Source: Maribacter sedimenticola (GTDB lineage Bacteria; Bacteroidota; Bacteroidia; Flavobacteriales; Flavobacteriaceae). From it: a DNA stretch of 64,000 bases. The notes beneath the pieces are model-generated. The model saw nothing but the letters and a program-made list of their open reading frames with translations. It had not been told where the DNA came from and searched no databases. The stretch spans positions 601,339 through 665,338 of the forward strand of contig NZ_FZNV01000002.1 of NCBI RefSeq assembly GCF_900188415.1. Direction: 5' to 3'. The position numbers and the translations under genes were made by a program. Positions 3,732 through 60,410 of the stretch are shown in pieces; position 1 is the first letter of the stretch; each line of letters begins with the position of its first letter.

Positions 3732-6650
3732 TTGAAAAATAATTTCCTGTCAAAGTTACAACAAGATTTAGAAGGTGAGGTCTTATATGACGACCTTACA
3801 AAAAGTTTATATGCAACGGATGCTTCGGTTTATAGAAAAATTCCTTTAGGAGCTGCCTTCCCTAAATCTGTAGAGGATATCAAGCGTATTATTGAATTTG
3901 CAAATCATGAAAGTATTGGAATAATACCCAGAACCGCCGGAACGTCCTTGGCTGGACAATGTGTTGGTGATGGTTTGGTGGTAGATGTTTCTAAATATTT
4001 CACAAAAATCATCAAAGTAGATGAGGCAAAAAAGCAGGTTACGGTACAACCAGGGGTAATACGGGATGAGCTCAACCAATATTTAAAACCGTACGGTTTA
4101 TTTTTTGGACCCAACACTTCAACCTCTAACAGGTGTATGATCGGTGGTATGGTAGGTAATAATTCCTCTGGTACTACATCTATACAATATGGGGTGACCA
4201 GAGATAAGGTTGTTTCATTGAAAACAATTTTGGCCGATGGTAGCGAGGCTGAATTTGGTAGGCTTTCTTCTATCGAATTTCAAGAAAAAATGAAAGGTAA
4301 TTCATTTGAAGCTTCACTTTATAAAAATATCTATAATGAACTAATTGACAAGGAAGTATCAAACGAAATAATTACACAATTTCCCAAACCTGAAATTCAC
4401 AGGAGAAATACCGGTTATGCAGTAGACGAACTTTTAAAATCCAACGTATTTGGTGGTCCTCTGGATTATTTCAATATGGCGGAACTGCTTTGTGGAAGTG
4501 AAGGTACCTTGGCATTTACAACTGAAATTACCGTTCAATTGGATGAATTGCCCCCGGCACTCTCTGCCATGGTCGTAACCCATTATACATCGTTAGAAGA
4601 TTGTTTAATGGATGTAGTACCGGTAATGGAGCACCCTTTGCAACTATGTGAAATGATGGATAAGGTTATTTTGGATTGTACAAAAAATAACCGTGCGCAA
4701 CTTGCAAATCGTTTTTTCGTAGAAGGTGATCCGGAAGCATTATTAATGTTGCAAGTTTCTGCCCATTCCGAAATAGAGCTAAATAAAGCGGTAGATGCTT
4801 TGATCAAGACCGTGGAAAAGTCCGGACTAAGCTATGCAAATCCTGTATTGGTCGGCAGTCAAATTAGTAAAGCCATTGAGCTACGTAAAGCCGGTTTGGG
4901 GCTTTTGGGTAATATTGTTGGAGATATGAAAGCGGTAGCCTGTATAGAGGATACGGCCGTTGCTCTGCCTGATCTAAAGGACTTTATAGCAGAATTTTCC
5001 GTAATCATGAAAGGGTATAAGCAAAACGCGGTGTACTATGCACATGCCGGTGCCGGTGAACTTCATTTGCGTCCGATTCTAAATCTTAAAAAGTCTACGG
5101 ATGTTGCTTTGTTCAGGAACATTACTACAGATGTTGCCAAGCTTACCAAGAAGTATAGGGGTTCGTTTAGTGGGGAGCATGGTGATGGTATCGTAAGGGC
5201 AGAATTCATTCCGCTCATGATTGGCAAAAAAAATTATGAACTGCTCAGGAGGGTAAAATCATATTTTGATCCCAAAGGTATACTGAACCCGGGAAAAATA
5301 GTAGATGCTTATCCTATGGACCAATCATTCCGTTATGAAGTGGACCGTGAGGAACCCAATATAGAAACACTTATGGATTTTTCCGATAGTGAGGGTATCC
5401 TTAAAGCTGCGGAGAAATGTAATGGTAGTGGGGACTGTAGAAAAACCCATCATATGAACGGGGGTATGTGTCCAAGTTACCATGCCACAAAAAATGAAAA
5501 AGATACCACTAGGGGCAGAGCAAATACATTAAGGGAATTTTTGACAAATCCGAAAAGTACGGCACAAAACAATTTTGACAGTCAAGAAATCAAGGAGGCT
5601 TTTGACTTGTGCTTAAGTTGTAAAGCTTGTGCCAGTGAATGTCCAAGTAATGTGGATGTTGCTACGTTGAAGGCGGAATTTTTATATCAATACCAAGAGG
5701 CCAACGGCTATCCTTTAAGAGGAAAATTGTTTGCATATAATACCAAATTAAACGGGTTGGCAAGTAAAGTATCCGGCTTGACAAATGCGGTATATGAATC
5801 CAAGTTTTTTGGAGGTTTATTGAAAAAATCCAGTGGTGTGGCCCCAGAAAGAAGTCTGCCAAAAGTTTATAGTTTTAATTTTGATAAGCATCTTCAAAAT
5901 ACTGCTAATCAATATCCTATAAATAGAAATAAAGTAGTCTTATATATAGATGAATTTACCAGGTATTTGGATATTGAAGTTGGGAAGGATGCAATTACGC
6001 TTTTGATTAAATTAGGATATGAAGTTCAACTATTTTATGCTGAAAGTGGCCGTACATTTTTATCTAAGGGCTTTTTGAAACAGGCAAAAAAACTTGCCCT
6101 CAAAAATATGGTAGAGCTGAAAAAATTTGCAGATCAATCAATTCCTATATTGGGTCTGGAGCCATCTGCAATACTATCTTTCAGGGATGAATATAAACGG
6201 TTGACCACCGATCGGATCGGTGCGCAACACATTGCCGATCATTCTTTCTTAATAGAAGAATTTTTGGCCAGTGAAATTGCTAACGGAAACTTGAGTGCAT
6301 CTTCTTTTACAACGGAGTCAAAAGATGTAAAGATTCATAATCACTGCCATCAAAAAGCATTGAGCAACCAAAAAGTAACTTTTGACATTCTTAATTTACC
6401 GGTCAATTATAAAGTAAGTATTATCCCTTCCGGTTGCTGTGGTATGGCAGGTTCATTCGGATACGAAAAAGAGCATTACGAGACCAGTATGAAAATAGGT
6501 GGCTTAAAATTGTTTCCTGCAGTTTCCAAATCGTCACCGGATACCATAATTGCAGCAAACGGAACCAGTTGCAGGCACCAAATTTTTGATGGTACCAAAA
6601 GAATAGCAAAGCATCCTGTCAGTATTTTGAACGACGCGTTGGTATCTTAA
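3732..6650 (+). CDS. FAD-linked oxidase with C-terminal Fe-S and CCG domains (D-2-hydroxyacid dehydrogenase, YdiJ-like)
   Basis: This 972-residue protein has an N-terminal PCMH FAD-binding domain (about residues 20-240), a GlcD-type C-terminal FAD domain (about 270-535), a ferredoxin-like 4Fe-4S region with CNGSGDC and CLSCKACASEC plus CP, and two cysteine-rich CCG-type segments (HNHCHQ and PSGCCGMAGS) near the end. The same fusion occurs in YdiJ-type D-2-hydroxyglutarate or D-lactate dehydrogenases, which oxidise a 2-hydroxyacid and pass electrons to the respiratory chain. Substrate cannot be decided from sequence. The start is a TTG, with no nearby in-frame ATG that keeps the FAD domain. 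It abuts the next convergent gene with no gap. Confidence 0.85.
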   Translation: MKNNFLSKLQQDLEGEVLYDDLTKSLYATDASVYRKIPLGAAFPKSVEDIKRIIEFANHESIGIIPRTAGTSLAGQCVGDGLVVDVSKYFTKIIKVDEAKKQVTVQPGVIRDELNQYLKPYGLFFGPNTSTSNRCMIGGMVGNNSSGTTSIQYGVTRDKVVSLKTILADGSEAEFGRLSSIEFQEKMKGNSFEASLYKNIYNELIDKEVSNEIITQFPKPEIHRRNTGYAVDELLKSNVFGGPLDYFNMAELLCGSEGTLAFTTEITVQLDELPPALSAMVVTHYTSLEDCLMDVVPVMEHPLQLCEMMDKVILDCTKNNRAQLANRFFVEGDPEALLMLQVSAHSEIELNKAVDALIKTVEKSGLSYANPVLVGSQISKAIELRKAGLGLLGNIVGDMKAVACIEDTAVALPDLKDFIAEFSVIMKGYKQNAVYYAHAGAGELHLRPILNLKKSTDVALFRNITTDVAKLTKKYRGSFSGEHGDGIVRAEFIPLMIGKKNYELLRRVKSYFDPKGILNPGKIVDAYPMDQSFRYEVDREEPNIETLMDFSDSEGILKAAEKCNGSGDCRKTHHMNGGMCPSYHATKNEKDTTRGRANTLREFLTNPKSTAQNNFDSQEIKEAFDLCLSCKACASECPSNVDVATLKAEFLYQYQEANGYPLRGKLFAYNTKLNGLASKVSGLTNAVYESKFFGGLLKKSSGVAPERSLPKVYSFNFDKHLQNTANQYPINRNKVVLYIDEFTRYLDIEVGKDAITLLIKLGYEVQLFYAESGRTFLSKGFLKQAKKLALKNMVELKKFADQSIPILGLEPSAILSFRDEYKRLTTDRIGAQHIADHSFLIEEFLASEIANGNLSASSFTTESKDVKIHNHCHQKALSNQKVTFDILNLPVNYKVSIIPSGCCGMAGSFGYEKEHYETSMKIGGLKLFPAVSKSSPDTIIAANGTSCRHQIFDGTKRIAKHPVSILNDALVS

Positions 6651-42401: not shown

Positions 42402-42900
42402 AATTCTATTTTACATAATATAAATTATAGAACAAAATTAACACATTGTAGCTTATAGGGGAAATCCCGTTTGTTAGCTATAATGATATTATGTAAAATA
42501 TCCCTCAAGCGTTGAGAATTGGTTAAAACCTACAACAGGGTCAGGAAACTTTTTTAAGCGGTGTCTGCGACGCATATTTTCATTTGTTCCATAATTAATC
42601 GTTATGTAAAATTGCCGCTGCCAAACGCTCGATTGCTTTTTAAAATCAAATTGCTCAGGCAATTTATTTTAAACACAATTTGCCATCGCTTGCCAACGCC
42701 AAAAAAAGCAAAACTTTTAGATTTTTTTGAAATTTACGATTTATGAGAAACTATACGTCAATAAATTTTTCAAAGCATTCTTGGCAGCTTGCCGCAACAG
42801 CTAAAAATTACTCTGCGAGATAATTTCTTAGCCCTTGCTAACCTATCGTCTTGATTTAAGCTTTTCTTTAAGTGCTTTTGACATTATGTAAAATAGAATT
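42402..42900. repeat. Repeat copy A: ~500-bp element with terminal inverted repeats
   Basis: The ends are AATTCTATTTTACATAAT (42402-42419) and its inverted match ATTATGTAAAATAGAATT (42883-42900). Inside are landmarks shared with copies B and C: TATGTAAAATATCCCTC, ACAGGGTC, CGTTATGTAAAATTGCCGCT, CGCTCGATTGCTTTTTAA, GCCAACGCC with a Lys-like A run, CCGCAACAGCTAAAA, TTAGCCCTTGCTAACC and CTTTTCTTTA. No transposase is encoded. The right end reaches into the 3' part of the next gene. Confidence 0.8.
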
Positions 42901-43719
42901 AGAGTCTATTTTTTTATTCAAAGATGGAAAATATACATAATGATAATCATTTGGTAATTTGCCAGATAACCCTATACTTACAAAGAAGTATTCTATTCTT
43001 TCAGGACATAAATCCCATCTCTCATCAAAATCAAAGGCAAACTGCTCATTGTAAAAATGCCTTTTAATTTTTATACCTATCGCAAATTCCAATAATAAAG
43101 TCTCATAGTGTGCAAAGAAAAAATGAAATAGATGCTTCGTTAATTTCATATCAATCATACCATGTTTTGAATAATTAGATATCCTTAAGACAAAATATAC
43201 CAGTTTAGCAAGTGAATGATTGGCAAGGTATCCATCAAAATCATTATTCCCAGGCAACTCCCAATTTTCTACTTTTCTTGTTTCATCAAGCAAACTGATA
43301 TGAGGGAACCAACCACTAAACCTATCAACATCTCTTTTTTCTTTTTGCGCAAGTCTTATCTGATTACCTAGGTCATATCTAACTTTTAAGAATTCTGTTG
43401 AATTAAGTTCTTCTAAAAGCTTGAAAGCTATGTTTCTTTTATTATTCCTTTGAGTTATAAAAAGTGTAATTAAAAAAGCGGATGTAGCAAATATCCACAA
43501 TGGTAATAATTGAAAAATCTTATCTTGAAAAGTAGAGTAATTCGGATTAGTTTCACTCGTGCCCGCACTAAAAGATGCTATGATAAATAGAAGAATCAGT
43601 GCTAAACCAAAAATACCAAACCCAATTTTTCCATAAGTCCACCAACCCGTTTTCTTGAATTTTTTCCCGCTAATTCTTTGTTGTCCATTAGTTAAAATTA
43701 ACTTCAAGTCTTTTTCCAT
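42868..43719 (-). CDS. Hypothetical protein with two transmembrane helices
   Basis: Two helices (about residues 30-50 and 70-90) are followed by a soluble region of ~190 residues with no motif I recognise. The C-terminal residues NSILHNV are encoded by the terminal inverted repeat of repeat copy A, and the stop lies inside the repeat, so the original 3' end has probably been replaced. ATG 43719 was chosen over TTG 43728. It is 290 bases downstream of the KAP NTPase gene in the same direction. Confidence 0.6.
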   Translation of the reverse strand: MEKDLKLILTNGQQRISGKKFKKTGWWTYGKIGFGIFGLALILLFIIASFSAGTSETNPNYSTFQDKIFQLLPLWIFATSAFLITLFITQRNNKRNIAFKLLEELNSTEFLKVRYDLGNQIRLAQKEKRDVDRFSGWFPHISLLDETRKVENWELPGNNDFDGYLANHSLAKLVYFVLRISNYSKHGMIDMKLTKHLFHFFFAHYETLLLEFAIGIKIKRHFYNEQFAFDFDERWDLCPERIEYFFVSIGLSGKLPNDYHYVYFPSLNKKIDSNSILHNVKST

Positions 43720-43784
43720 ATGTTTCAAGAGTCTATCTATTGTATTGCTTTTAGGTGCTGATTACTAATTTTGCCTTTAACTAA

Positions 43785-44012
43785 TTTATCTTTTTTTCTT
43801 GATAAAAAAAGAAACAAAAAAATCAAGGCTTACAGATAATTTTAGAAACAATGTACAGGTCGGTCGCTAAATTTTAGGATCCATTGTAACTCTTAAGACC
43901 GCTTTAAGGTGAAAGAACCAATATAAACAGTCAACAAATATTGTAACCAGCCCCCTAAAATTATTAACGCTCCTCTCCCCTATTGTTTTACCAAAATTCT
44001 CTTAGGCCCTTT
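43785..44012. repeat. Second repeat family, copy a
   Basis: This gene-free stretch shares four blocks in the same order with 52480-52935: TTATCTTTTTTTCTTGATA, TTTTAGGATCCATTGTA followed by CTCTTAA, a C-rich CCCCTA region, and TGTTTTACCAAAATTCTCTT followed by AGGCC. It starts with an imperfect hairpin (CTTGAT at 43798-43803 and ATCAAG at 43821-43826). It lies at the 3' side of the KAP NTPase gene, as copy b lies at the 3' side of module 2. Confidence 0.7.
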
Positions 44013-44018
44013 AAAAAT

Positions 44019-46625
44019 TCATCGTTCAAGTGATTTTAATTTGTCAACTGCTGGTGGAAATTTAAAATCAAATTCTACTTTGCTGAATTCATTTTCTTTA
44101 CACAATACAAAAAATTTCAAAAATTCTTCTTTAAATATGCTAGGTTTAGATAAATCCTCTTCACTTAAACCATTTAACCAATCTTCAAAAGCTTGGAAAC
44201 TCCCGAAAATATTGTTTTTTATACCATGAGAAACTCCAATTAAATTATCCCCTCCATTTTTTCCTCGGAACGGCATGGCTTCTATGAAAGTAACTAGAAA
44301 ACTATCTAAATCCTTTTTCATAAAATTAATTAACAAATCTTGGGCACCATCAAAATAACTATAACTTGTTACCCTTTGATGTTGCTCATTTAATTTCGTG
44401 GTATTTGTTTTGCAATTGTGAAATAATGCCCAAACCCTACTAGACAATTCGTCGGAGTTATCTAAATAGTCTCTTAAGTAATTAGTTAATGTATTTTTAA
44501 TCTCTTCTTCAGACAAAATAAAATTATCCTCTTTAAAATTATCATCTATCACATGATTTAAAAAATCAGATTCAAATAAGAATGGTGTTTGAGAATTCCC
44601 TAAAACGTCTAGAATGAAACGCTTAAATTCTTGATTTTGCCCAGCATAAAACTTATTGGATATAATATTATCTTTATTAGAAATAAAGTTTTGTAATGTT
44701 GTGTTATCGTAACCTAATACATGTTGTCCATAGTAAGAGCTAACAACTTCCAAATTTGCAATATAAAAGATGGTTTTTACAATTTTTTCATAGTTTTCCC
44801 TAGAATCAATGTCAGCAATATTTAATTCGTAAAAACGATATTTAACTAAATCAAGTACTTTCTTTTCCTTCCATTCTTTAATTTTACCTTTTATTGCTTC
44901 AAAATCAGAAATTAATGTTTGTTTGAAATCAACTTCAGATAAATCTTCAATATTCAAATTATCTTTAAAGTATTTATGATAATTCCGTTCGAAAGCTAAT
45001 GACAAATGACTTTTTTGTTGGTATGTATCTATTTCAAATAGTCTATTCATTATTTTTCCAACCTTTAAAACTATTTCCTCCTTATAATTGAGTTGCTCAA
45101 GCATAAATTTACCGAGGATTGATTCTTTGTATTCCCTAGTTCTAATTCCGAAAGTTGAATTATTATCATTCTCATATCTATTCTTTAAATAATAGATGGT
45201 CCCACCACCACCATAGGATTGACCTCTATTATTTAAAAATTTATCCTTATGTAAAAACAATAAGATGTAAATATCATAGAACTTAAATTTTAATAGTTTA
45301 AGTAAAAAATAATCTTCAAAAACCACTTCGTTTTTTATAGATACGTAATCATTAACAAAAGAATTTAAAAACCTTTTAGCGTCTCTTAAATGATTTAATG
45401 GAATATCATTTCCTTCTGTTCTAAATATTACAGAATTGGTTCCAAAATATGATTCAATTTCTTCCGTCTTGTCATCGACTTTTGATATTAATGTAGCCTT
45501 AATAAATTCTTTTATTTGAGATTGGGTAACAGGAATTAGATGCTCTTCTTTTAAGAATATCTTCTCTGAAAACTTTTCAGGTTTAGGTATGTTTAAATTT
45601 TCCAATGATTTATTCAAATAATCTTTATCAAATGCCACTACATAGACAAAACAATCGAAACTAGCGGTATTTCTAATTAGTCTTAGAATTTCGAAAATTT
45701 CATTCGACTGAAGTCGATCAAAATCATCAATGAAAATTATCACCCTTTTATTAAGGTTTTTAAGAAGAGAGTTTAAGGCCTTAAAATCAGCAGATATATT
45801 TTTTTTCAATGCGAACGTCAAAATCTCTTTTAGGCTATCTGTAAAATTAGTTTTACTGACATTCAATATAGAATGAGAGTATTTCTTTATTTCTCTGTAA
45901 ACATCTTCGCTGTAAGGTCTTAGTGCTTCCTGAATTGTATCAAAGAAATCTTTAATAATTGGTTCTACCCCTAAGTTGAGCCATGGATTAAAATCAATTA
46001 AAATAAAATCTTTTTCGGTGTTCTTATTGTTGATTTCTTTTTTAAGTAAGTTCAAAAATGAAGTTTTGCCACTCCCCCATTCGCCAGTAATCCCAAATCC
46101 AATTGCCTCACTAGTCTTAGATTGAAAAATCTCGTTTGCAATTCGCTTAGCCTTATAATTTCGGTCGAGAGCATCTTCTTTTTCAAGTTTTATTGGAGAG
46201 TCGTCAAAAAGGTTATCATGATTTCCCTTTTTTTTAAACCTTTTATGAAAAACAGAAAAAATAGTAGTAAAGGGGGCTATGAGTAGATAAAATGATAATA
46301 CATCAAAATATTTTAAATGTTCACAAAAAGAAAAACCATAAAAATTATAGTCGAGATAAAACCTTGTGAATAGATAAAACCCAATCGATGTTATGCTAAA
46401 GATCCATTGATGCAGAGATATATAACTTTTATTTTTAAAATTGAGATATACTTTTCGAACTATCAAAAACAATAGAATTGCAAATATTAAATCTATGGCC
46501 AGATTCGATTCTATCTTACTGAGAACGGGATTTACGACGACTTTATCAACTAGGTTCTTAATCGGGTTAAAAAACAGAATTAACAAGCCCGCAAAAATAA
46601 AAGTTACTCTATAGTTTTTTTTCAT
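44019..46625 (-). CDS. Membrane-anchored KAP-family P-loop NTPase
   Basis: 868 residues. Four predicted transmembrane helices occupy residues ~5-130. The KAP NTPase follows with Walker A GEWGSGKTS (181-189), the KAP-typical DFNPWLN (211-217) and Walker B RVIIFIDDFDRL (294-305), then a long helical C-terminal half with no recognised domain. KAP NTPases are often mobile-element-borne and some act in phage exclusion, as PifA does. It is 37 bases downstream of the small membrane protein gene and appears to be the last gene of the graspetide unit. A transport, immunity or defence role is inference. Confidence 0.85.
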   Translation of the reverse strand: MKKNYRVTFIFAGLLILFFNPIKNLVDKVVVNPVLSKIESNLAIDLIFAILLFLIVRKVYLNFKNKSYISLHQWIFSITSIGFYLFTRFYLDYNFYGFSFCEHLKYFDVLSFYLLIAPFTTIFSVFHKRFKKKGNHDNLFDDSPIKLEKEDALDRNYKAKRIANEIFQSKTSEAIGFGITGEWGSGKTSFLNLLKKEINNKNTEKDFILIDFNPWLNLGVEPIIKDFFDTIQEALRPYSEDVYREIKKYSHSILNVSKTNFTDSLKEILTFALKKNISADFKALNSLLKNLNKRVIIFIDDFDRLQSNEIFEILRLIRNTASFDCFVYVVAFDKDYLNKSLENLNIPKPEKFSEKIFLKEEHLIPVTQSQIKEFIKATLISKVDDKTEEIESYFGTNSVIFRTEGNDIPLNHLRDAKRFLNSFVNDYVSIKNEVVFEDYFLLKLLKFKFYDIYILLFLHKDKFLNNRGQSYGGGGTIYYLKNRYENDNNSTFGIRTREYKESILGKFMLEQLNYKEEIVLKVGKIMNRLFEIDTYQQKSHLSLAFERNYHKYFKDNLNIEDLSEVDFKQTLISDFEAIKGKIKEWKEKKVLDLVKYRFYELNIADIDSRENYEKIVKTIFYIANLEVVSSYYGQHVLGYDNTTLQNFISNKDNIISNKFYAGQNQEFKRFILDVLGNSQTPFLFESDFLNHVIDDNFKEDNFILSEEEIKNTLTNYLRDYLDNSDELSSRVWALFHNCKTNTTKLNEQHQRVTSYSYFDGAQDLLINFMKKDLDSFLVTFIEAMPFRGKNGGDNLIGVSHGIKNNIFGSFQAFEDWLNGLSEEDLSKPSIFKEEFLKFFVLCKENEFSKVEFDFKFPPAVDKLKSLER

Positions 46626-46662
46626 ATCACCATCTATTGATTAGCCATTAGAACTCATTAAA

Positions 46663-47193
46663 TCAAATGATGAAGGACACAATTAAAAGTTCTATTGTTA
46701 ATGCAACCAAAAAATAAATTCCAAAAGCAAAAAGTTTATTTGATTTTAAAAGAATCGTTCCTTTGGTATTATTTAGCCCTCTATTTCTATCAATACTAAA
46801 GATTAAATCGTCTATGTATTCTTTTTTAAATTCGGATACTTTTTTATGACCACATCTTACAGTCTCTTCTGAACAATCTGCATATTTGAACTTCTGGATA
46901 TTAAAGATTTTACTAGCGTAAAAAATTGAGGTACAAAGAAGTAAAATGGTAACTAAAAATGTCAATGCCAGTACAACCTTTAGTTCCAAGAATATGCATT
47001 TTAAGGAATCATAAAACAGCGGAAGAATAAATGTAACTATCGATATTATTAATCCTGATTGAGCAATTAATTGGGTTATCTTACTTTCCAATTTATTCAT
47101 TCTGCTATCTTCATTATCAAATAACCTCAGTAGATATGAGATGTATTCATCATTAAGTTGTTTCTCTATTTGTCCTTTCTTCTTTTCTCCCAT
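46663..47193 (-). CDS. Small three-helix membrane protein of the graspetide operon
   Basis: 176 residues with a soluble N-terminal helical part (about 1-45), two close transmembrane helices (~47-65 and 72-95), a cytoplasmic segment with two Cys (CSEE, RCGHKK), and a third helix at the C-terminus (~155-176). The layout resembles small effector or anchor membrane proteins of the SLATT/PycTM type but no diagnostic motif is seen. It starts 14 bases after the ATP-grasp ligase stop and precedes the KAP NTPase by 37 bases. It might take part in export or immunity. Confidence 0.7.
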   Translation of the reverse strand: MGEKKKGQIEKQLNDEYISYLLRLFDNEDSRMNKLESKITQLIAQSGLIISIVTFILPLFYDSLKCIFLELKVVLALTFLVTILLLCTSIFYASKIFNIQKFKYADCSEETVRCGHKKVSEFKKEYIDDLIFSIDRNRGLNNTKGTILLKSNKLFAFGIYFLVALTIELLIVSFII

Positions 47194-47207
47194 AAATTAT
47201 AGCAGTA

Positions 47208-48122
47208 TCAAGTGAGATATTGGATAATTGCATCAGAAATTTTTAAGCCTGTGTCGCTTTCAATCCATACCCATTGCCCGTTAGGGTTTATTTCTAAGAA
47301 AACATATCCGTCTTTTGTTTTTATTAAATCTATTGCACCAAACCCTAAACCCAATTCACTTACAAGTCTAAGAGCTAATTCTTGAATATCAATTGGTAAG
47401 TTGTAGGGTTCAAACTTTAATCTTTTTCTTCTCCAATCTAATTTAGAGTCCGAATCACTTTGTGAATCTACTTTTGCTGCAAAAATTTCCTTGCCAACTA
47501 CGGTAACTCGAAGTTCATATTCTTTTTCGATTTCATTTTGAAAAATCATTGGAAAAGAAACAAAACTTTCGTTCTCCACATGATTTGTTTTCAAACTGTT
47601 CGTGAAAACTATTTTTTCTTCTCCGTCAGCTAAAAATCGACTTCTATATAGCGGCTTAATTATTATTTTTTTTCCATTCTCTTTGCTAAATTGTTGGATC
47701 TCTACAGAATCTGAGGAAATTATGGTATTTGGAATGGGAAAACCAAGTTTTCGAGCAACTGATAATTGAAAAATTTTATTTTCAGCCTTGTAGATATTGT
47801 TTGGATTACTTAGCCATTTATTTGTACTCAAAGTATTCCAAAGGTTGCTGAAAAAACTTTGGTAGTCTTTATTGTAAAAATCATTCTCTTCAAATGAAGA
47901 AAAAGAAATTGTTGGTACTTTGACCCTCCTAAACCAAACTGAATCAAAATGTGAAATTCCGTCTATAGCAATCTTAGTATCATTTTTTGTAGTGAATGAA
48001 ATTTTATGCTTAAGTCCAATACAGTCAGTATTGAATCTCAAGTATTCGATATTTCTTTGATTTAAAATATTGACAAGGAAATCAGCCGTATAATCCTCTC
48101 TATGAGTTACAATTAAAATCAC
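47208..48122 (-). CDS. ATP-grasp graspetide (omega-ester peptide) ligase
   Basis: 304 residues, a MvdC/MvdD-like ATP-grasp ligase. The N-terminal domain contains FRRVKVP, the central domain IIIKPLYRSRFLADG (ATP-binding Lys) and EYELRVTVVG. The catalytic end carries FGAIDLIKTKDGYVFLEINP plus NGQWVWIE, the characteristic metal-binding signature of this family. These enzymes form ester or amide links between Thr/Ser/Lys and Asp/Glu side chains of a precursor peptide. It starts with GTG 48122, overlapping the precursor's TAG by one base. No second ligase (as in microviridin) is present. Confidence 0.92.
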   Translation of the reverse strand: MILIVTHREDYTADFLVNILNQRNIEYLRFNTDCIGLKHKISFTTKNDTKIAIDGISHFDSVWFRRVKVPTISFSSFEENDFYNKDYQSFFSNLWNTLSTNKWLSNPNNIYKAENKIFQLSVARKLGFPIPNTIISSDSVEIQQFSKENGKKIIIKPLYRSRFLADGEEKIVFTNSLKTNHVENESFVSFPMIFQNEIEKEYELRVTVVGKEIFAAKVDSQSDSDSKLDWRRKRLKFEPYNLPIDIQELALRLVSELGLGFGAIDLIKTKDGYVFLEINPNGQWVWIESDTGLKISDAIIQYLT

Positions 48123-48457
48123 TAATCTGTATCGGTGCTTTCCATTTCAACTCTAGTAGTAGTGGCAGTAATCAGAAAATTTGATAATGAAAAAACATCA
48201 TTGTCATCATCAGTTTCTTCTGAATTACCAATTGAATCTGTTCGAGTAACAACTGCCATACCCATATCCGAATCCGAATCACTTGATTCCCCTGAAACCT
48301 TAGTAAAAGTTTGAGTAACTGTATTCTCAATAGTATCTATAGCAGGTAGATTGTTGGAAACAAACACGTTTAGGTTCTTAATATCACAATATCTTGTTTC
48401 AGGAAATTCAAATTCCTCAGTTATTGTCTCGCCGTATTCAAATAGTAAGTACTTCAT
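48122..48457 (-). CDS. Multicore graspetide precursor peptide
   Basis: 111 residues. The leader (~1-45) is acidic and holds FEYGETITEEFEFPETRY. Three similar core repeats follow: V47-D64, V70-D87 and I96-D111. They share T-x-T-x-[TS]-x4-E-x2-D-x-D: T48/T50/T52 with E57/D60/D62, T71/T73/S75 with E80/D83/D85, T97/T99/T101 with E106/D109/D111. Three hydroxyl donors and three acid acceptors per repeat fit three side-chain ester rings each. The gene's stop overlaps the ligase start, as expected for precursor and enzyme. Ring connectivity and export are not shown by sequence. Confidence 0.85.
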   Translation of the reverse strand: MKYLLFEYGETITEEFEFPETRYCDIKNLNVFVSNNLPAIDTIENTVTQTFTKVSGESSDSDSDMGMAVVTRTDSIGNSEETDDDNDVFSLSNFLITATTTRVEMESTDTD

Positions 48458-48683
48458 ATTTTTTTGTTCAAATTGAAAATTCCAAATGGATTTTCATTGA
48501 AAATAAATTGTGTTAATTCAACTATTGGTATTCTTAAATATATTGAATATTAACAAGTATTCAATTACGAAAATCTATTAGGTAGTGTAAAATTTTAGTA
48601 ATATAGACTTCCACATAAATCTCCAGCCTTGCTACGTCGAGTTCTGTAATAAGTTCTTAATTAATTTTTTGCATTCAAAAGTC
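48458..48683. other. Promoter region of the graspetide operon with degenerate boundary element
   Basis: No gene is found. On the minus strand it holds a promoter-like sequence (48535-48564) and, further upstream, a worn copy of the boundary element (48610-48655) reading CCACATAAATCTCC, GCTACGTCGAG and GTAATAAGT, which parallels CCACACACATTGCC, CTACCGTCGGTCAG and GTAATAAGT at 51716. Confidence 0.55.
48535..48564 (-). promoter_or_regulatory. Predicted promoter of the graspetide operon
   Basis: On the minus strand TTG (48564-48562) is followed by a 19-base spacer and TATATTTA (48542-48535), one mismatch from TAnnTTTG. The same arrangement, with nearly the same -33 flank (TAATTGrATACTTGTTAAT), stands before the gene starting at 51502. 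Confidence 0.5.
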
Positions 48684-48899
48684 TTAACATGTAGGTTTCC
48701 ATTTTATGAAATCTGGTGGACAAAAACCCTTCATTCTAAAAGATGATTTAGTTATTCTATTTATCTCTTGTTCTTTAAATTCTCTGATAGGTGCAGACTC
48801 CACATCAATTGTGATTATTAAATTCTTCAATGTATCGACCTCCAATTTTTGCTTAATAAAGGTTACCTGTTCTTGTGTCAATTTAAATTCTTCAGCCAT
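48684..48899 (-). CDS. Small hypothetical protein, third gene of the surface-protein unit
   Basis: 71 residues, soluble, starting MAEEFKLTQEQVTFIKQKLE and ending with Cys. No signal peptide, no family recognised. It begins nine bases after the lipoprotein gene's stop, so it belongs to that operon. A second Cys lies in KGFCPPDF. It could be a small adaptor or regulator. Confidence 0.55.
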   Translation of the reverse strand: MAEEFKLTQEQVTFIKQKLEVDTLKNLIITIDVESAPIREFKEQEINRITKSSFRMKGFCPPDFIKWKPTC

Positions 48900-48908
48900 A
48901 ATATTTGA

Positions 48909-49625
48909 TTATTCATTAATAATTTTGATTTTTAAAGTATCTGCAAAAAACTGTTGAGGGTTATGTAAATTTGGTAGTTCCCCGTATACCTTGACCGTAT
49001 CTATTCTTGTTTCTGTCGATATTTGTAATGTGGCAATAGTTTCTGCTGAGTCAATAAAAACATCTCTCGGGAAAATACTAACTGGGTCCTGTGTTTTAAA
49101 ACGAAATTTAGTATTGTAGCTCGGGAACCCGTTATCGTTTGAAAAAAGAGCTCTAATTTTTGTAGTATTTCCAGGTGATAGTTTGAGTTGAACAGAATCG
49201 GCTAAAATCTGTATGAATGAAGGATATTGCGGTATGGCGTCAAAATTATACGTCCCAAGATGACTGGATTTTTCTGTTACCGCAATACTAAATGCTCCTG
49301 GTACTCTTCCTGCCTTCAATAAAACGGTATCTGTATAAGAATCTGTGATTTTGTTATACTTTATTTGTATAGTTGACGAGTTAGTGCCATTATTCCATTC
49401 GCCCCAAGTGCTTTCAAGTGAAATTTCTTTTGAACCACCATACCTAACTCCTGGGACTTCGACTTCAAAAGAATAAAATGAGAAACCATTTGCAATTATA
49501 CTGTCTTTAGATTGTAAATTCCTTAGGCTAAACTGTCTATTAACAGTCAGATCTTCTTCCGAATCATAGCACCCATTCACAATCAAAGTTATAATCGTTA
49601 TTAGAATTATTGTGTTATATCTCAT
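48909..49625 (-). CDS. Hypothetical beta-rich lipoprotein
   Basis: 238 residues with lipobox LIVNGC (Cys near residue 19). The mature part is beta-rich and Ser/Thr-rich, consistent with an Ig-like surface domain, for example SLESTWGEWNNGTNSSTIQ and KLSPGNTTKIRALFSNDNG. No named family. It starts two bases after the upstream 644-residue protein's stop, so the two are cotranscribed and probably act together at the cell surface. Confidence 0.65.
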   Translation of the reverse strand: MRYNTIILITIITLIVNGCYDSEEDLTVNRQFSLRNLQSKDSIIANGFSFYSFEVEVPGVRYGGSKEISLESTWGEWNNGTNSSTIQIKYNKITDSYTDTVLLKAGRVPGAFSIAVTEKSSHLGTYNFDAIPQYPSFIQILADSVQLKLSPGNTTKIRALFSNDNGFPSYNTKFRFKTQDPVSIFPRDVFIDSAETIATLQISTETRIDTVKVYGELPNLHNPQQFFADTLKIKIINE

Positions 49626-49627
49626 TA

Positions 49628-51502
49628 TTACGGATTTAATGATTTAATCGATCCATAAAGACCTTCAAATAAAGATTGTAGTTTTAAGTTGATGCTAATT
49701 GAAACCGCTTTCGCTGTTTTTATCTTAAAGGTTCCTTCACCTGAGGAATTACTATCTATTCCTCTGAAAAAAATTCCCCCATAACTAATCCTTATTGTGT
49801 GATTAATGTTAACTCCAATACCTCCATAAAGTGAGAAAGAGTTACCTACCAGATGTTTACGACGCCCCTCTTCAATTAAACTACCCGTAAAAAAAGGCAC
49901 GCCTACTTGGAAAGTAAGATACTTTTTCCACCCTGGGATTTCATTAAATGGAACATCTTCATTTCTTCCGCGAATACCAAAATGAAATCCCGCAAATGGT
50001 GCAACACCTTGGAATCCTTCATCTGAGCGATAATATAACAAACCAAAATCAGGCTTAATTATCCTACTATTCCTAGTAAGGAAATTATATGAATTGGTCG
50101 TTTTCTCCAAAGTTGTGAAATTTTGTCCTATAGGTAACAACTCTTTTTTTAATTTATCATCTATCTTACTATTCTTTTGTAGCTTTTCATTAATACATAT
50201 CTTATTTTCTTCCAAAATGTCAATGAAATCATCGAAATAATTTTCATATTTTGAAACTATCGAATCTGATTGTTCAAGAAGGTATAAAGATTGCTTGGCC
50301 TTGTTTGCAAGATTTAAGTGATATAATATGTTTGTTTTTTGTTCAGTAAGATTGGTTTTAGGTTCAAAACTCATGTTTAACCTGTTCTTTTCGTTCAACT
50401 CTATTCTCGTTTCTCCAGTTACAAGGTCATTTCCATATTTCTTTGAAACAACAAGAATTCCGTTTAACTCTCGAAAATCTAGACTAGAGCCATTTGGTAA
50501 GATGAACAAAGAATCATTAGTTAGATGATGTTGAATTAAACTAGTTGGATATGGATAAGAACCGGGGAAACTAATCCTTTGTGGAAAAGGAGACAAGCTT
50601 GGTTTTTCATTGTATTCTTTAAGTAAAGTTTTTATTTTAGGGATTCGATTTTTAAGTAATATTGGAGAAATAATCTCTGAAAGCTCTTTCCATTGATTTT
50701 CCGAAGTAAAATTTTTGGGAATAAGCGAAGCATAGTGTTTTCCAAAATCCCCGTAACTATCATGCTCTTCTACAAGCTTAGCTAGGACTTTAACTTTATT
50801 CAAATAATCCATAGCAACAATCAGATATCTCTTATTTGGCTTTAGGTGTTCAACACGAACAACCAAGGTATCCTTTATCCTATTTACCTCATCGAGGGGT
50901 ATAATAGAAAGTTTCTTTTTGAATTGTTTTATAAGTTTCTGTCGGTTGAGTAAATGATAATTGATTAAGCTGTCTGATTTTACATACTTATTTATTTTAT
51001 ATTCAATTGTATAAATTTGTTTAGACAATCTGCCCAGTTCTTTCTGTGCATTTTCATCATTTGACGCTCTTGATTCAATTTCTTTTTTCCTTATTTCAAG
51101 TTGTTTTAATTGTTGTTTCCAAGAAGATTCAAGGCTTTCATTTTCCTTTAAATAATTTTCCGCCTCTGCTGAGTCAATTGAAATTTTTTTTTCTATGTCT
51201 TCTATTCTGTAGTCGGTAGTCCATCTATATTGCTTCAAAGATGTGTTTTTATCAACTACAACCTTCCCATTTTTATCTAATCGATATAGGTAAACGGCTC
51301 GATATGGTTTGTTCTTTGGGCTAACAAGTTTCAAGTTAAAATCTAGGTCAAAAGGAAAAACCTGTGTCTTTGCAGTGTCAAGAGTAAAACTTGCCTTTAG
51401 TTCTTGGGCAAATGAATTGAAATTTGTCAAAACGCCTAAAACAAATAGGCATAAATAAAATTTATTCTGATGAAATATCGAATTTTCGGACTTTAACTCC
51501 AT
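49628..51502 (-). CDS. Hypothetical secreted protein with coiled coil and beta-barrel-like C-terminus
   Basis: The signal peptide is MELKSEN-type, cleaving near FNSFAQ; ATG 51502 was chosen because an upstream ATG at 51559 would put 19 residues before it. The middle region (about 110-190) is a Lys/Glu-rich coiled coil, and the last ~150 residues consist of alternating strands (FGLLYYRSDEGFQGVAPFAG, SFSLYGGIGVNINHTIR) like an outer-membrane barrel. Family not recognised. First gene of a three-gene unit with its own promoter-like sequence at 51643-51672. Confidence 0.65.
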   Translation of the reverse strand: MELKSENSIFHQNKFYLCLFVLGVLTNFNSFAQELKASFTLDTAKTQVFPFDLDFNLKLVSPKNKPYRAVYLYRLDKNGKVVVDKNTSLKQYRWTTDYRIEDIEKKISIDSAEAENYLKENESLESSWKQQLKQLEIRKKEIESRASNDENAQKELGRLSKQIYTIEYKINKYVKSDSLINYHLLNRQKLIKQFKKKLSIIPLDEVNRIKDTLVVRVEHLKPNKRYLIVAMDYLNKVKVLAKLVEEHDSYGDFGKHYASLIPKNFTSENQWKELSEIISPILLKNRIPKIKTLLKEYNEKPSLSPFPQRISFPGSYPYPTSLIQHHLTNDSLFILPNGSSLDFRELNGILVVSKKYGNDLVTGETRIELNEKNRLNMSFEPKTNLTEQKTNILYHLNLANKAKQSLYLLEQSDSIVSKYENYFDDFIDILEENKICINEKLQKNSKIDDKLKKELLPIGQNFTTLEKTTNSYNFLTRNSRIIKPDFGLLYYRSDEGFQGVAPFAGFHFGIRGRNEDVPFNEIPGWKKYLTFQVGVPFFTGSLIEEGRRKHLVGNSFSLYGGIGVNINHTIRISYGGIFFRGIDSNSSGEGTFKIKTAKAVSISINLKLQSLFEGLYGSIKSLNP

Positions 51503-51642
51503 TTGTATTAACACTTTAGAATATTCTATATTTAGATTCAGCAAATCTTTAATTTTCATCAACTAATTACAATACCCATCAAAGGGTATTTTAACTTAGG
51601 GGGAAGAAATAAATTGTAGGAAGTAATATATTTTGAGGATTT

Positions 51643-51672
51643 TAAATATATAAAAAATTAACAAGTATCCAA
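51643..51672 (-). promoter_or_regulatory. Predicted promoter, duplicated with the one at 48535
   Basis: TTG (51672-51670) is followed by a 19-base spacer and TATATTTA (51650-51643) on the minus strand. The flanking sequence TAATTGGATACTTGTTAAT is nearly identical to the graspetide operon promoter, suggesting a shared ancestral boundary sequence. Confidence 0.5.
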
Positions 51673-51715
51673 TTACGGTTTTCTGTAAATAATTAATATT
51701 TGTAGTAAAATACCA

Positions 51716-51870
51716 TTACACACACACATTGCCCTCCCTCCTACCGTCGGTCAGTAATAAGTGTTTCATTACCTTTTCAGAGAAACTTTTTAGAAGAAAA
51801 ATTTAAAGAAAGTGAAGTACCAATTACTTTGCTTTACCCAAGCAAAGTTACATAACGCGGAACATTATGA
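51716..51870. repeat. Boundary element copy (CCTCCC type)
   Basis: The element begins CACACACATTGCCCTCCCTC, continues CTACCGTCGGTCAG and AATAAGTGT, then a T/A-rich part, a CAAAG-rich stretch and ends TTACATAACGCGGAACATTA. The copy at 59633-59789 shares the whole length, those at 63871 and 48610 only the first part. Reverse-complemented, it lies upstream of the cargo genes on the minus strand. Confidence 0.75.
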
Positions 51871-51974
51871 TACATTTTGTAATATTGGTTTAGCCCAAAG
51901 GCTGAAGCAATATTCAAGAAAGATGATGCGGCTGCCAACATACCGTAAAGGTTTAATGAAAAACGTAAGTCATA

Positions 51975-52453
51975 ATTCTATTATGTAAAATATCCCTCAC
52001 ATTTGTAGCTTTTAAGCGAATTACCAACAGGGTCGTCAACCTGTTTAATTTACGCTACAAGAAAATTTTGCACACAAAAGAAAATGTAATCCAAACTTAG
52101 AAATTCCGCAACCCTCACGACAAACCTTTCGTCTGTACTCATAATTTGCCGTTATGTAAAATAGCCGCTACCAAGCGCTCGATTGCTTTTTAAATTCTAA
52201 AATGCTTAATCGCATTTTAAATTTAAACACAATTTCCCGCCACTTGCCAACGCCATTTAAAAGCTTGCCTTTTAGGTTTGTTTAAAATTCGTGTATTCGA
52301 GGAAATCTCTGCAAGATTTTTTTCTACTACATTCTCGTCAGTTAGCCGCAACAGCTAAAATTTTCTCTGCGAGCAAAATTCTTAGCCCTTGCTAACCTCC
52401 CGTCTTGTTTTATCTTTTCTTTAGGTACTTCTAACATTATGTCAAATAGAATT
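51975..52453. repeat. Repeat copy B
   Basis: It begins AATTCTATTATGTAAAATAT and ends ATTATGTCAAATAGAATT. Internal landmarks match copies A and C: ATCCCTCACATTTGTAGCTT, ACCAACAGGGTC, GCCGTTATGTAAAATAGCCG, GCGCTCGATTGCTTTTTAAA, CTTGCCAACGCC, GCCGCAACAGCTAAAATTTT and TTAGCCCTTGCTAACCTCCC. Unlike copy A, the two ends are in direct rather than inverted orientation. Confidence 0.8.
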
Positions 52454-59789: not shown

Positions 59790-59924
59790 GACCAGATTGG
59801 TGTATGTCGTAAAACGGCGCATGCTTGCATTTGATATAATATCAGATATGACGCCTTTAGGTTCATATCGTCAGATATTATGTCAAAACCGTTTTACTTG
59901 AATGTTGAAATTATAAGTAGCTAT

Positions 59925-60410
59925 AATTCTATTATGTAAAATATCCCTCACGTTTATAGCTTTTAAGAGAATTACCAACAGGGTCATCAACTTTTTTAAT
60001 TCACGTAACTTCAATATTTCTACACAGAAAAAACTTTTTAGAGAATTTCAAATTCTTAGAAACCCCCAACGAGAAACCTTTGGGCTGTATCTATAATTAG
60101 TCGTTATGTAAAATTGCCGCTCGGCCAACTGCAAATTGCTTTCATAAAATCAAAATGCTCAGGCATTTTATTTTATACGCAATTCCCAGCAGCTTGGCCA
60201 GCGCCAAAAAAAGCAAAACCTTTTAGCTATTTTCAAATAAACGATTTACGAGGAATCGTCCGTCAATAAATTTTTCAGAAACTTCCCGTCAACCTGTCGC
60301 AAAAGTTTAAAATTTAGCAGAGCATAAATTTCTAAACACTTGCTACCCTCTTCGTTCCAAGCAAACTTTTCCTTCCAAACAAACTTTTCCTTGAAGTCTA
60401 TTTGACATAC
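59925..60410. repeat. Repeat copy C
   Basis: It begins AATTCTATTATGTAAAATAT, like copy B, and contains ACCAACAGGGTC, TCGTTATGTAAAATTGCCGC, CAGCGCCAAAAAAAGCAAAA and TACGAGGAATCGTC. The last ~100 bases are more diverged than in A and B, and it ends AGTCTATTTGACATAC, like the sequence near 42261. Confidence 0.75.

Follow-up and report, generated by a model that had tools for sequence, protein, structure and literature searches.

A probable thuringinin-type multi-core graspetide cassette with candidate three-ester cores on a transferred island of Maribacter sedimenticola

Among described graspetides, the closest counterparts of the system reported here are those of the thuringinin type (precursors of cluster 13 and membrane proteins of cluster 18, Makarova et al. 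2022, PMC8939145). The accessible part of that survey also describes a large precursor cluster in which each member has several cores with a related arrangement of Thr, Glu and Asp (groups 3, 5 and 6 of Lee et al.), and its section 7 describes an uncharacterised membrane protein specific to thuringinin loci, for which a role in transport is suggested. Thuringinin has two esters per repeat, and another product, OEP6-1, is a stem-loop with three nested crosslinks (both in the accessible part of PMC12291112). The microviridins carry the core motif TxKxPSD and the leader motif PFFARFL (excerpts of PMC7823629 and PMC8939145), and another leader motif, Phhx(1,2)h, is found near the N-terminus of about half of the precursors covered by PMC8939145. 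As far as the accessible text of that survey goes, all characterised graspetides are protease inhibitors, and a role in conflict systems is not named.

The window, a 64,000-nucleotide stretch of the M. sedimenticola genome (contig NZ_FZNV01000002.1, positions 601,339 to 665,338), carries an operon on the minus strand that is transcribed in the order precursor, ligase, membrane protein and KAP NTPase. The 111-aa precursor peptide (48122..48457), recognised from the list of open reading frames, its motif and its conservation in relatives, precedes a 304-aa MvdC/MvdD-like ATP-grasp peptide ligase with a GTG start, a predicted macrocyclase (47208..48122). The third cassette gene encodes a small membrane protein of 176 aa (46663..47193) and is followed by the gene of a PifA-like KAP-family P-loop NTPase of 868 aa (44019..46625). 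The earlier note had reported a one-base overlap of the peptide and ligase genes, and the coordinates agree, because the TAG stop of the precursor and the GTG start of the ligase have base 48122 in common. Gaps of 14 bp and 37 bp separate the membrane-protein gene from the ligase and KAP genes, respectively. The range considered in the earlier note, from 46663, included the membrane-protein gene (46663-47193), which went unmentioned there; this protein, the KAP NTPase and the island discussed below are additions to its description.

In the precursor, leader-like residues 1-47 are followed by three cores, T48-D62, T71-D85 and T97-D111, with the pattern TxTx[TS]x4ExxDxD. Three repeats had been noticed earlier, and the expression T.T.[TS].{4}E..D.D matches the precursor exactly three times, at residues 48, 71 and 97; when residues 43-111 were shuffled 200,000 times, 223 shuffles contained at least one match and none contained two. 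In core 2, Ser takes the third hydroxyl position, and the first Glu is followed by another. Neither Pfam nor NCBIfam has a match to the precursor at E ≤ 0.1, and its only candidate relative in the PDB, a designed helical protein (E 0.0025), was rejected as a chance match. For the motif strings, none of the matches listed from one open-licence literature library concerned peptides of this kind.

Relatives of the window precursor preserve the motif. We counted 46 cores in 18 precursors from 17 loci, leaving aside L074, which shares its contig with L034, and L072, which repeats the island of the window; locus numbers are given where loci need to be told apart. The first hydroxyl position is Thr in all 46 cores, and the second and third are each Thr in 45 and Ser in one; Glu and the first Asp are invariant, and the last acid is Asp in 44. 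The expression behind this count, which accepted T/S and D/E/N at the key positions, leans towards the motif, and it missed core 2 of L035 (TEIIT...). The places in between vary more, if not freely, x2 being Glu in 25/46 and the residue after the first Asp being Ser in 29/46. The third Thr and the Glu are separated by four residues in 39 cores, by three in six and by five in one, namely core 2 of the window, which also permits a four-residue reading. This conservation across 17 loci disfavours a chance origin of the motif and, on the question of whether homologous precursors retain it, speaks for the earlier proposal.

The number of counted cores varies from one (L034, L045 and both precursors of L076) through two (L035) to four (L041), with three in the rest, so that a single core looks like the unit. 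At least two cores were counted in the window and in 13 of the 17 other precursors, with one ligase per locus. In L076, tandem single-core precursors (1488-1718 and 1897-2133) replace one multi-core precursor. The window leader begins with MKYLLFEYGE and that of many relatives with MKPhIFxF; at the place corresponding to the Phhx(1,2)h motif, most relatives have Pro (e.g. MKPFIFQF), which the window (MKYLLFEY) and L033 (MRYLLFEY) lack. A GG doublet before the first core was found in none of the 18 precursors (the sole GG sits inside core 2 of L035), nor was a peptidase or ABC transporter among the nine window proteins scanned with Pfam, which leaves leader removal and export unexplained.

The ligase contains LEINPNGQWVWIE and exceeds the cut-offs of PF08443 (46.4 bits) and PF21068 (31.9 bits). 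Membership in the two microviridin equivalogs was rejected, as the scores against TIGR04185 (MvdC; 222.8 bits, cut-off 425) and TIGR04184 (MvdD; 203.5 bits, cut-off 475) are far below the curated thresholds. The profile of the ligase clade matches the solved ligases 5ig8, 7m4s, 5ig9 and 7mgv, and the clade members share the DWR and ExNPxG motifs with solved microviridin-type ligases. The locus thus combines an MvdC/MvdD-related ATP-grasp ligase with an adjacent precursor containing conserved Thr/Ser and Asp/Glu residues, the arrangement by which graspetides are recognised; judged by these profile and motif matches, the window ligase belongs to the graspetide superfamily, reaching none of its curated equivalogs. 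Microviridin and chryseoviridin systems (MvdC/MvdD, CdnC) have homologous ligases and include multi-core precursors. By contrast, the window has neither the PFFARFL leader nor the TxKxPSD core and encodes one ligase rather than two.

A tree computed from 51 ligases places the 15 orthologues with an intact frame in one clade (support 97/95) that takes in Flavobacteriaceae, Sphingobacteriaceae and Acidobacteriota; the interrupted ligase genes of L045 and L073 were left out of the alignment (A3) and the tree. In these two loci (L045 6001-6913; L073 7584-8498), the ligase frame is broken and the precursor and membrane-protein ORFs remain. All 17 clade loci compared, from Bacteroidota and Acidobacteriota, have the precursor, ligase and membrane-protein genes in this order. 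A pattern scan of 84,980 species genomes yielded 15 loci, 11 of them in the clade of the window; L042-L044 and L046, from the same scan, lie outside the clade count of 17. Ligase orthologues scoring over 400 bits were found in 6/397 genomes of the window's family (next best, 221 bits) and in 2/345 genomes sampled from its class, and precursor-profile matches in 2/395 genomes sampled from its phylum, the window's own genome being counted in each sample. Given so few matching genomes, the system is rare and scattered. Searches of plasmids and phages with the ligase (tblastn) gave best identities of 36% and 40%, respectively, among full-length matches, and the L037 precursor had no plasmid match. 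Strep_pep (PF14404) had no match in the window's own genome, a result that is uninformative, the control being equally silent.

Overall, the window operon is best read as a genuine cassette for a multi-core graspetide, most likely one of the thuringinin type. With that type (PMC8939145, as far as accessible) it shares the repeated Thr/Glu/Asp cores, the single ATP-grasp ligase and an uncharacterised membrane protein encoded in the locus, with no known peptide transporter seen; the likeness to clusters 13/18 is drawn from published descriptions. Given this resemblance in layout, the kind of system is already known, and the earlier view that the motif is unlike those of characterised groups appears doubtful, since the multi-core cluster and membrane protein described in the accessible part of PMC8939145 present the same layout. 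The difference lies in the cores, which in the clade of the window have three hydroxyl residues and E-x2-D-x-D, against the two esters per repeat given for thuringinin in the part of PMC12291112 available. We put the probability of the fuller reading, a thuringinin-type multi-core cassette with nested three-ester cores and up to nine esters, at roughly two in three.

According to this reading, the ribosome would make the 111-aa precursor, and the single MvdC-like ligase would bind its N-terminal region, which presumably serves as the leader. Using ATP, the ligase would activate Glu and Asp side chains and esterify them with Thr/Ser hydroxyls, core after core. The conserved order TxTxT...E..D.D makes a nested ladder (T5-E10, T3-D13 and T1-D15) the simplest pairing; it would produce a hairpin-like core with three esters, three such cores per precursor and at most nine esters. 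The topology proposed for one window core, with its putative pairing, is that of OEP6-1 as described in the accessible part of PMC12291112. The evidence from core conservation favours three esters per core without proving them, their number and pairing being those that the motif suggests. The membrane protein would then handle the product at the membrane, as a possible exporter, immunity protein or effector.

A membrane protein is encoded 3' of the ligase in 17/17 loci, although in L045 and L076 it has just 130-150 aa. The window protein has a long N-terminal helix and three hydrophobic regions, and hydropathy profiles of 16 aligned members peak in three regions, some as two overlapping windows. 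The AlphaFold2 model consists of long helices (pLDDT 83.9) and matches no PDB fold at E ≤ 0.001. Identification as a SLATT protein was considered and dropped, as there is no SLATT model among the 14 Pfam families that match 13 members at E ≤ 0.05. Loci outside the clade encode a membrane protein in the corresponding position. The two membrane-protein alignments are joined by hhalign (E 2.7e-12), the only comparison that does so; with hmmsearch at E ≤ 10, the profile of the target membrane proteins recovered three of the seven proteins in the wider set (L104, L043 and L042). By description, the window protein probably belongs to the same family as that of thuringinin loci.

The product might be a secreted graspetide of the classical kind, which the membrane protein would export and which would inhibit proteases or act as an antimicrobial outside the cell; the KAP NTPase and the caspase-like proteases described below would then be bystanders. 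The transport role proposed in section 7 of PMC8939145 and the activity of characterised graspetides as protease inhibitors, as given in the accessible text of the same survey, point in this direction. Yet the 13 members searched belong to no convincing transporter family, MFS_1 (E 0.005) and AI-2E_transport (E 0.04) each matching a single member, and the lack of a PDB counterpart and the proximity of caspase and KAP genes, which exceeds what random placement predicts, also weigh against this reading. We regard a secreted product as quite plausible, at somewhat below even odds.

The operon is part of a transferred island (42590..51874). By blastn, this 9.3-kb segment aligns with a region of G682 (locus L072), a genome of another genus in the same family, at 99.5% identity over 9,287 columns. 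Besides the operon, the island carries minus-strand cargo: a 286-aa protein whose link to the peptide is putative (42868..43728) and a 644-aa protein that matches no family (49628..51562), L072 being the only compared locus with a homologue of either; a 238-aa lipoprotein-like protein (48909..49625) with a weak T9SS_plug match (20.5 bits, cut-off 100); and, between the latter gene and the precursor, a 71-aa ORF lacking family matches (48684..48899). Three related repeats (42590-42844, 51972-52398 and 59923-60349) mark, exactly or nearly, the limits of the graspetide island and of the block next to it, and look like cassette or recombination boundaries. With at most one mismatch allowed, the window contains 13 copies of the string TTATGTAAAATA, where 2.2 would be expected, and most of them lie in or near these repeats. 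Outside the clade, plasmids (L050 and L104), a Leptospira phage record (L048) and other viral contigs (L111-L113) carry the cassette. On the phage record, the three-gene cassette spans 4679-6580, and the annotation of the precursor, a 106-aa ORF, covers no more than a short 3' part (4886-4999).

The neighbourhood of the operon contains recurrent partners. The window KAP NTPase scores 130.5 bits against PF07693 (cut-off 20) and 155.7 bits against the PADLOC PifA model, and KAP genes adjoin the operon in the window (and the near-identical L072), L073 and L075, in two gene orders. A caspase-like protease gene adjoins it in L035, L036 and L047, and all three proteases keep the catalytic His and Cys. 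The 18 host genomes, reached via the clade loci and including G682, which repeats the island of the window, contain five caspase-like genes, of which these three adjoin the operon; among 16 genomes with 20 control loci of other ATP-grasp ligases, 0/7 caspase genes lie within 6 kb of a control locus. Similarly, four of the ten KAP matches over 100 bits in the host genomes (21 matches in all) adjoin the operon, three of them independently, against 0/6 over 100 bits and 0/10 in all within 6 kb of control loci. Under random placement, about 0.01 caspase and 0.03 KAP genes would be expected to be adjacent. In the tree, the branch of one control ligase, L103, is very long, and this enzyme is possibly no graspetide ligase. 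Hidden Markov models trained on the target loci gave 0/20 for the control loci, a weak result in view of that training, and the gene-family counts are the better control.

Several further genes accompany these partners. A homologous protein of 168/169 aa is encoded between the KAP NTPase and the precursor in L073 (6695-7204) and L075 (8270-8776), that of L073 having no Pfam match at E ≤ 0.001. Two of the caspase loci, L035 (6357-7568) and L047 (7732-8919), encode adjacent homologous proteins of 403/395 aa with a stretch resembling the R-x-H motif of HEPN RNases, a likeness lacking Pfam support. In L036, TIR/ThsB-like genes flank the operon on both sides.

These associations suggest that the cassette could instead be a module of a cell-autonomous conflict system, in which the acidic peptide, once modified, would remain inside the cell to inhibit or trigger the caspase-like protease, the KAP NTPase or the membrane protein. 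The enrichment of caspase and KAP genes over the control loci, the TIR/ThsB-like flanks of L036 and the presence of the cassette outside the clade on a phage record and plasmids are in keeping with such a function, and peptide-processing modules have been proposed for other NTP-dependent conflict systems (section 24 of PMC7159879). The latter likewise combine a small processed peptide with adjacent NTPase/TIR-type genes, but use a metallopeptidase and radical-SAM enzymes, and the word 'ATP-grasp' is absent from the main text of PMC7159879. However, neither partner is present in the examined flanks of 11 of the 17 loci (six have one or the other), and the three caspase loci fall, with L037, into one subclade, so that they may represent one event, although its support (91/85) is not firm. 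In addition, defence genes are known to cluster with unrelated genes, and the characterised graspetides are protease inhibitors according to the accessible text of PMC8939145. A link between graspetides and caspases was not found in one open-licence library and may be published elsewhere. On balance, we consider a conflict-system function somewhat unlikely.

For the chemistry of the core, the alternative to three links is two esters as in thuringinin, with the third Thr (Ser in core 2) playing a structural part and the window peptide carrying six links rather than nine. The precedent of thuringinin (PMC12291112, accessible part) favours it, as do relatives outside the clade. In the latter, which have the same gene order, 22 cores of mixed form were found in nine precursors (L043 gave none): 19/22 conform to TxTx3-4ExD[DE], and 3/22, two in L049 and one in L050, are of the three-Thr target type. 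Most of these cores have two aligned Thr, with Thr at position 5 in 8/22 and lacking in 14/22. Hence, the three-Thr core is the rule in the clade of the window but not unique to it, and the idea that the third Thr was gained in this clade was dropped. A ligase family that accepts both core types may form either two or three links per core, and the mixed cores slightly lower our confidence in three esters and slightly raise the standing of two. Against two esters, all 46 counted cores keep the three hydroxyl positions and at least 44 keep the acids, donors equal acceptors in number, and a nested stem-loop with three links is known in OEP6-1 (PMC12291112, as far as accessible). A two-ester core is unlikely in our judgement. 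That an acidic repeat protein stands unmodified beside an unrelated ATP-grasp enzyme is highly improbable: while no product has been seen, precursor and ligase are neighbours in 17/17 loci, their genes overlapping by one base in both the window and L035, and the spacing of the motif is kept across phyla.

The preferred reading, a thuringinin-type cassette with three-ester cores, is in its chemistry alone a modest extension of published graspetides; the recurrent caspase and KAP neighbourhood is the less expected result and the part worth following. One could speculate that tri-ester multi-core graspetides regulate or trigger death-type effectors within the producing cell, the Asp-rich ring peptide being an inhibitor or substrate of the adjacent caspase-like protease in Sphingobacteriaceae and a partner of the PifA-like KAP NTPase and the membrane protein in the lineage of the window, with spread on islands and, in the wider kin, on plasmids and phages; we hold this full scenario to be doubtful. 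If each core does carry three nested esters, one ligase would write up to nine links per peptide, which would offer a template for constrained peptides. Should the caspase link prove functional, L035 and L036 would provide ready protease/peptide pairs for testing, and, if the caspase and KAP links both are, a part in bacterial immunity would be added for peptides so far regarded as secreted natural products.
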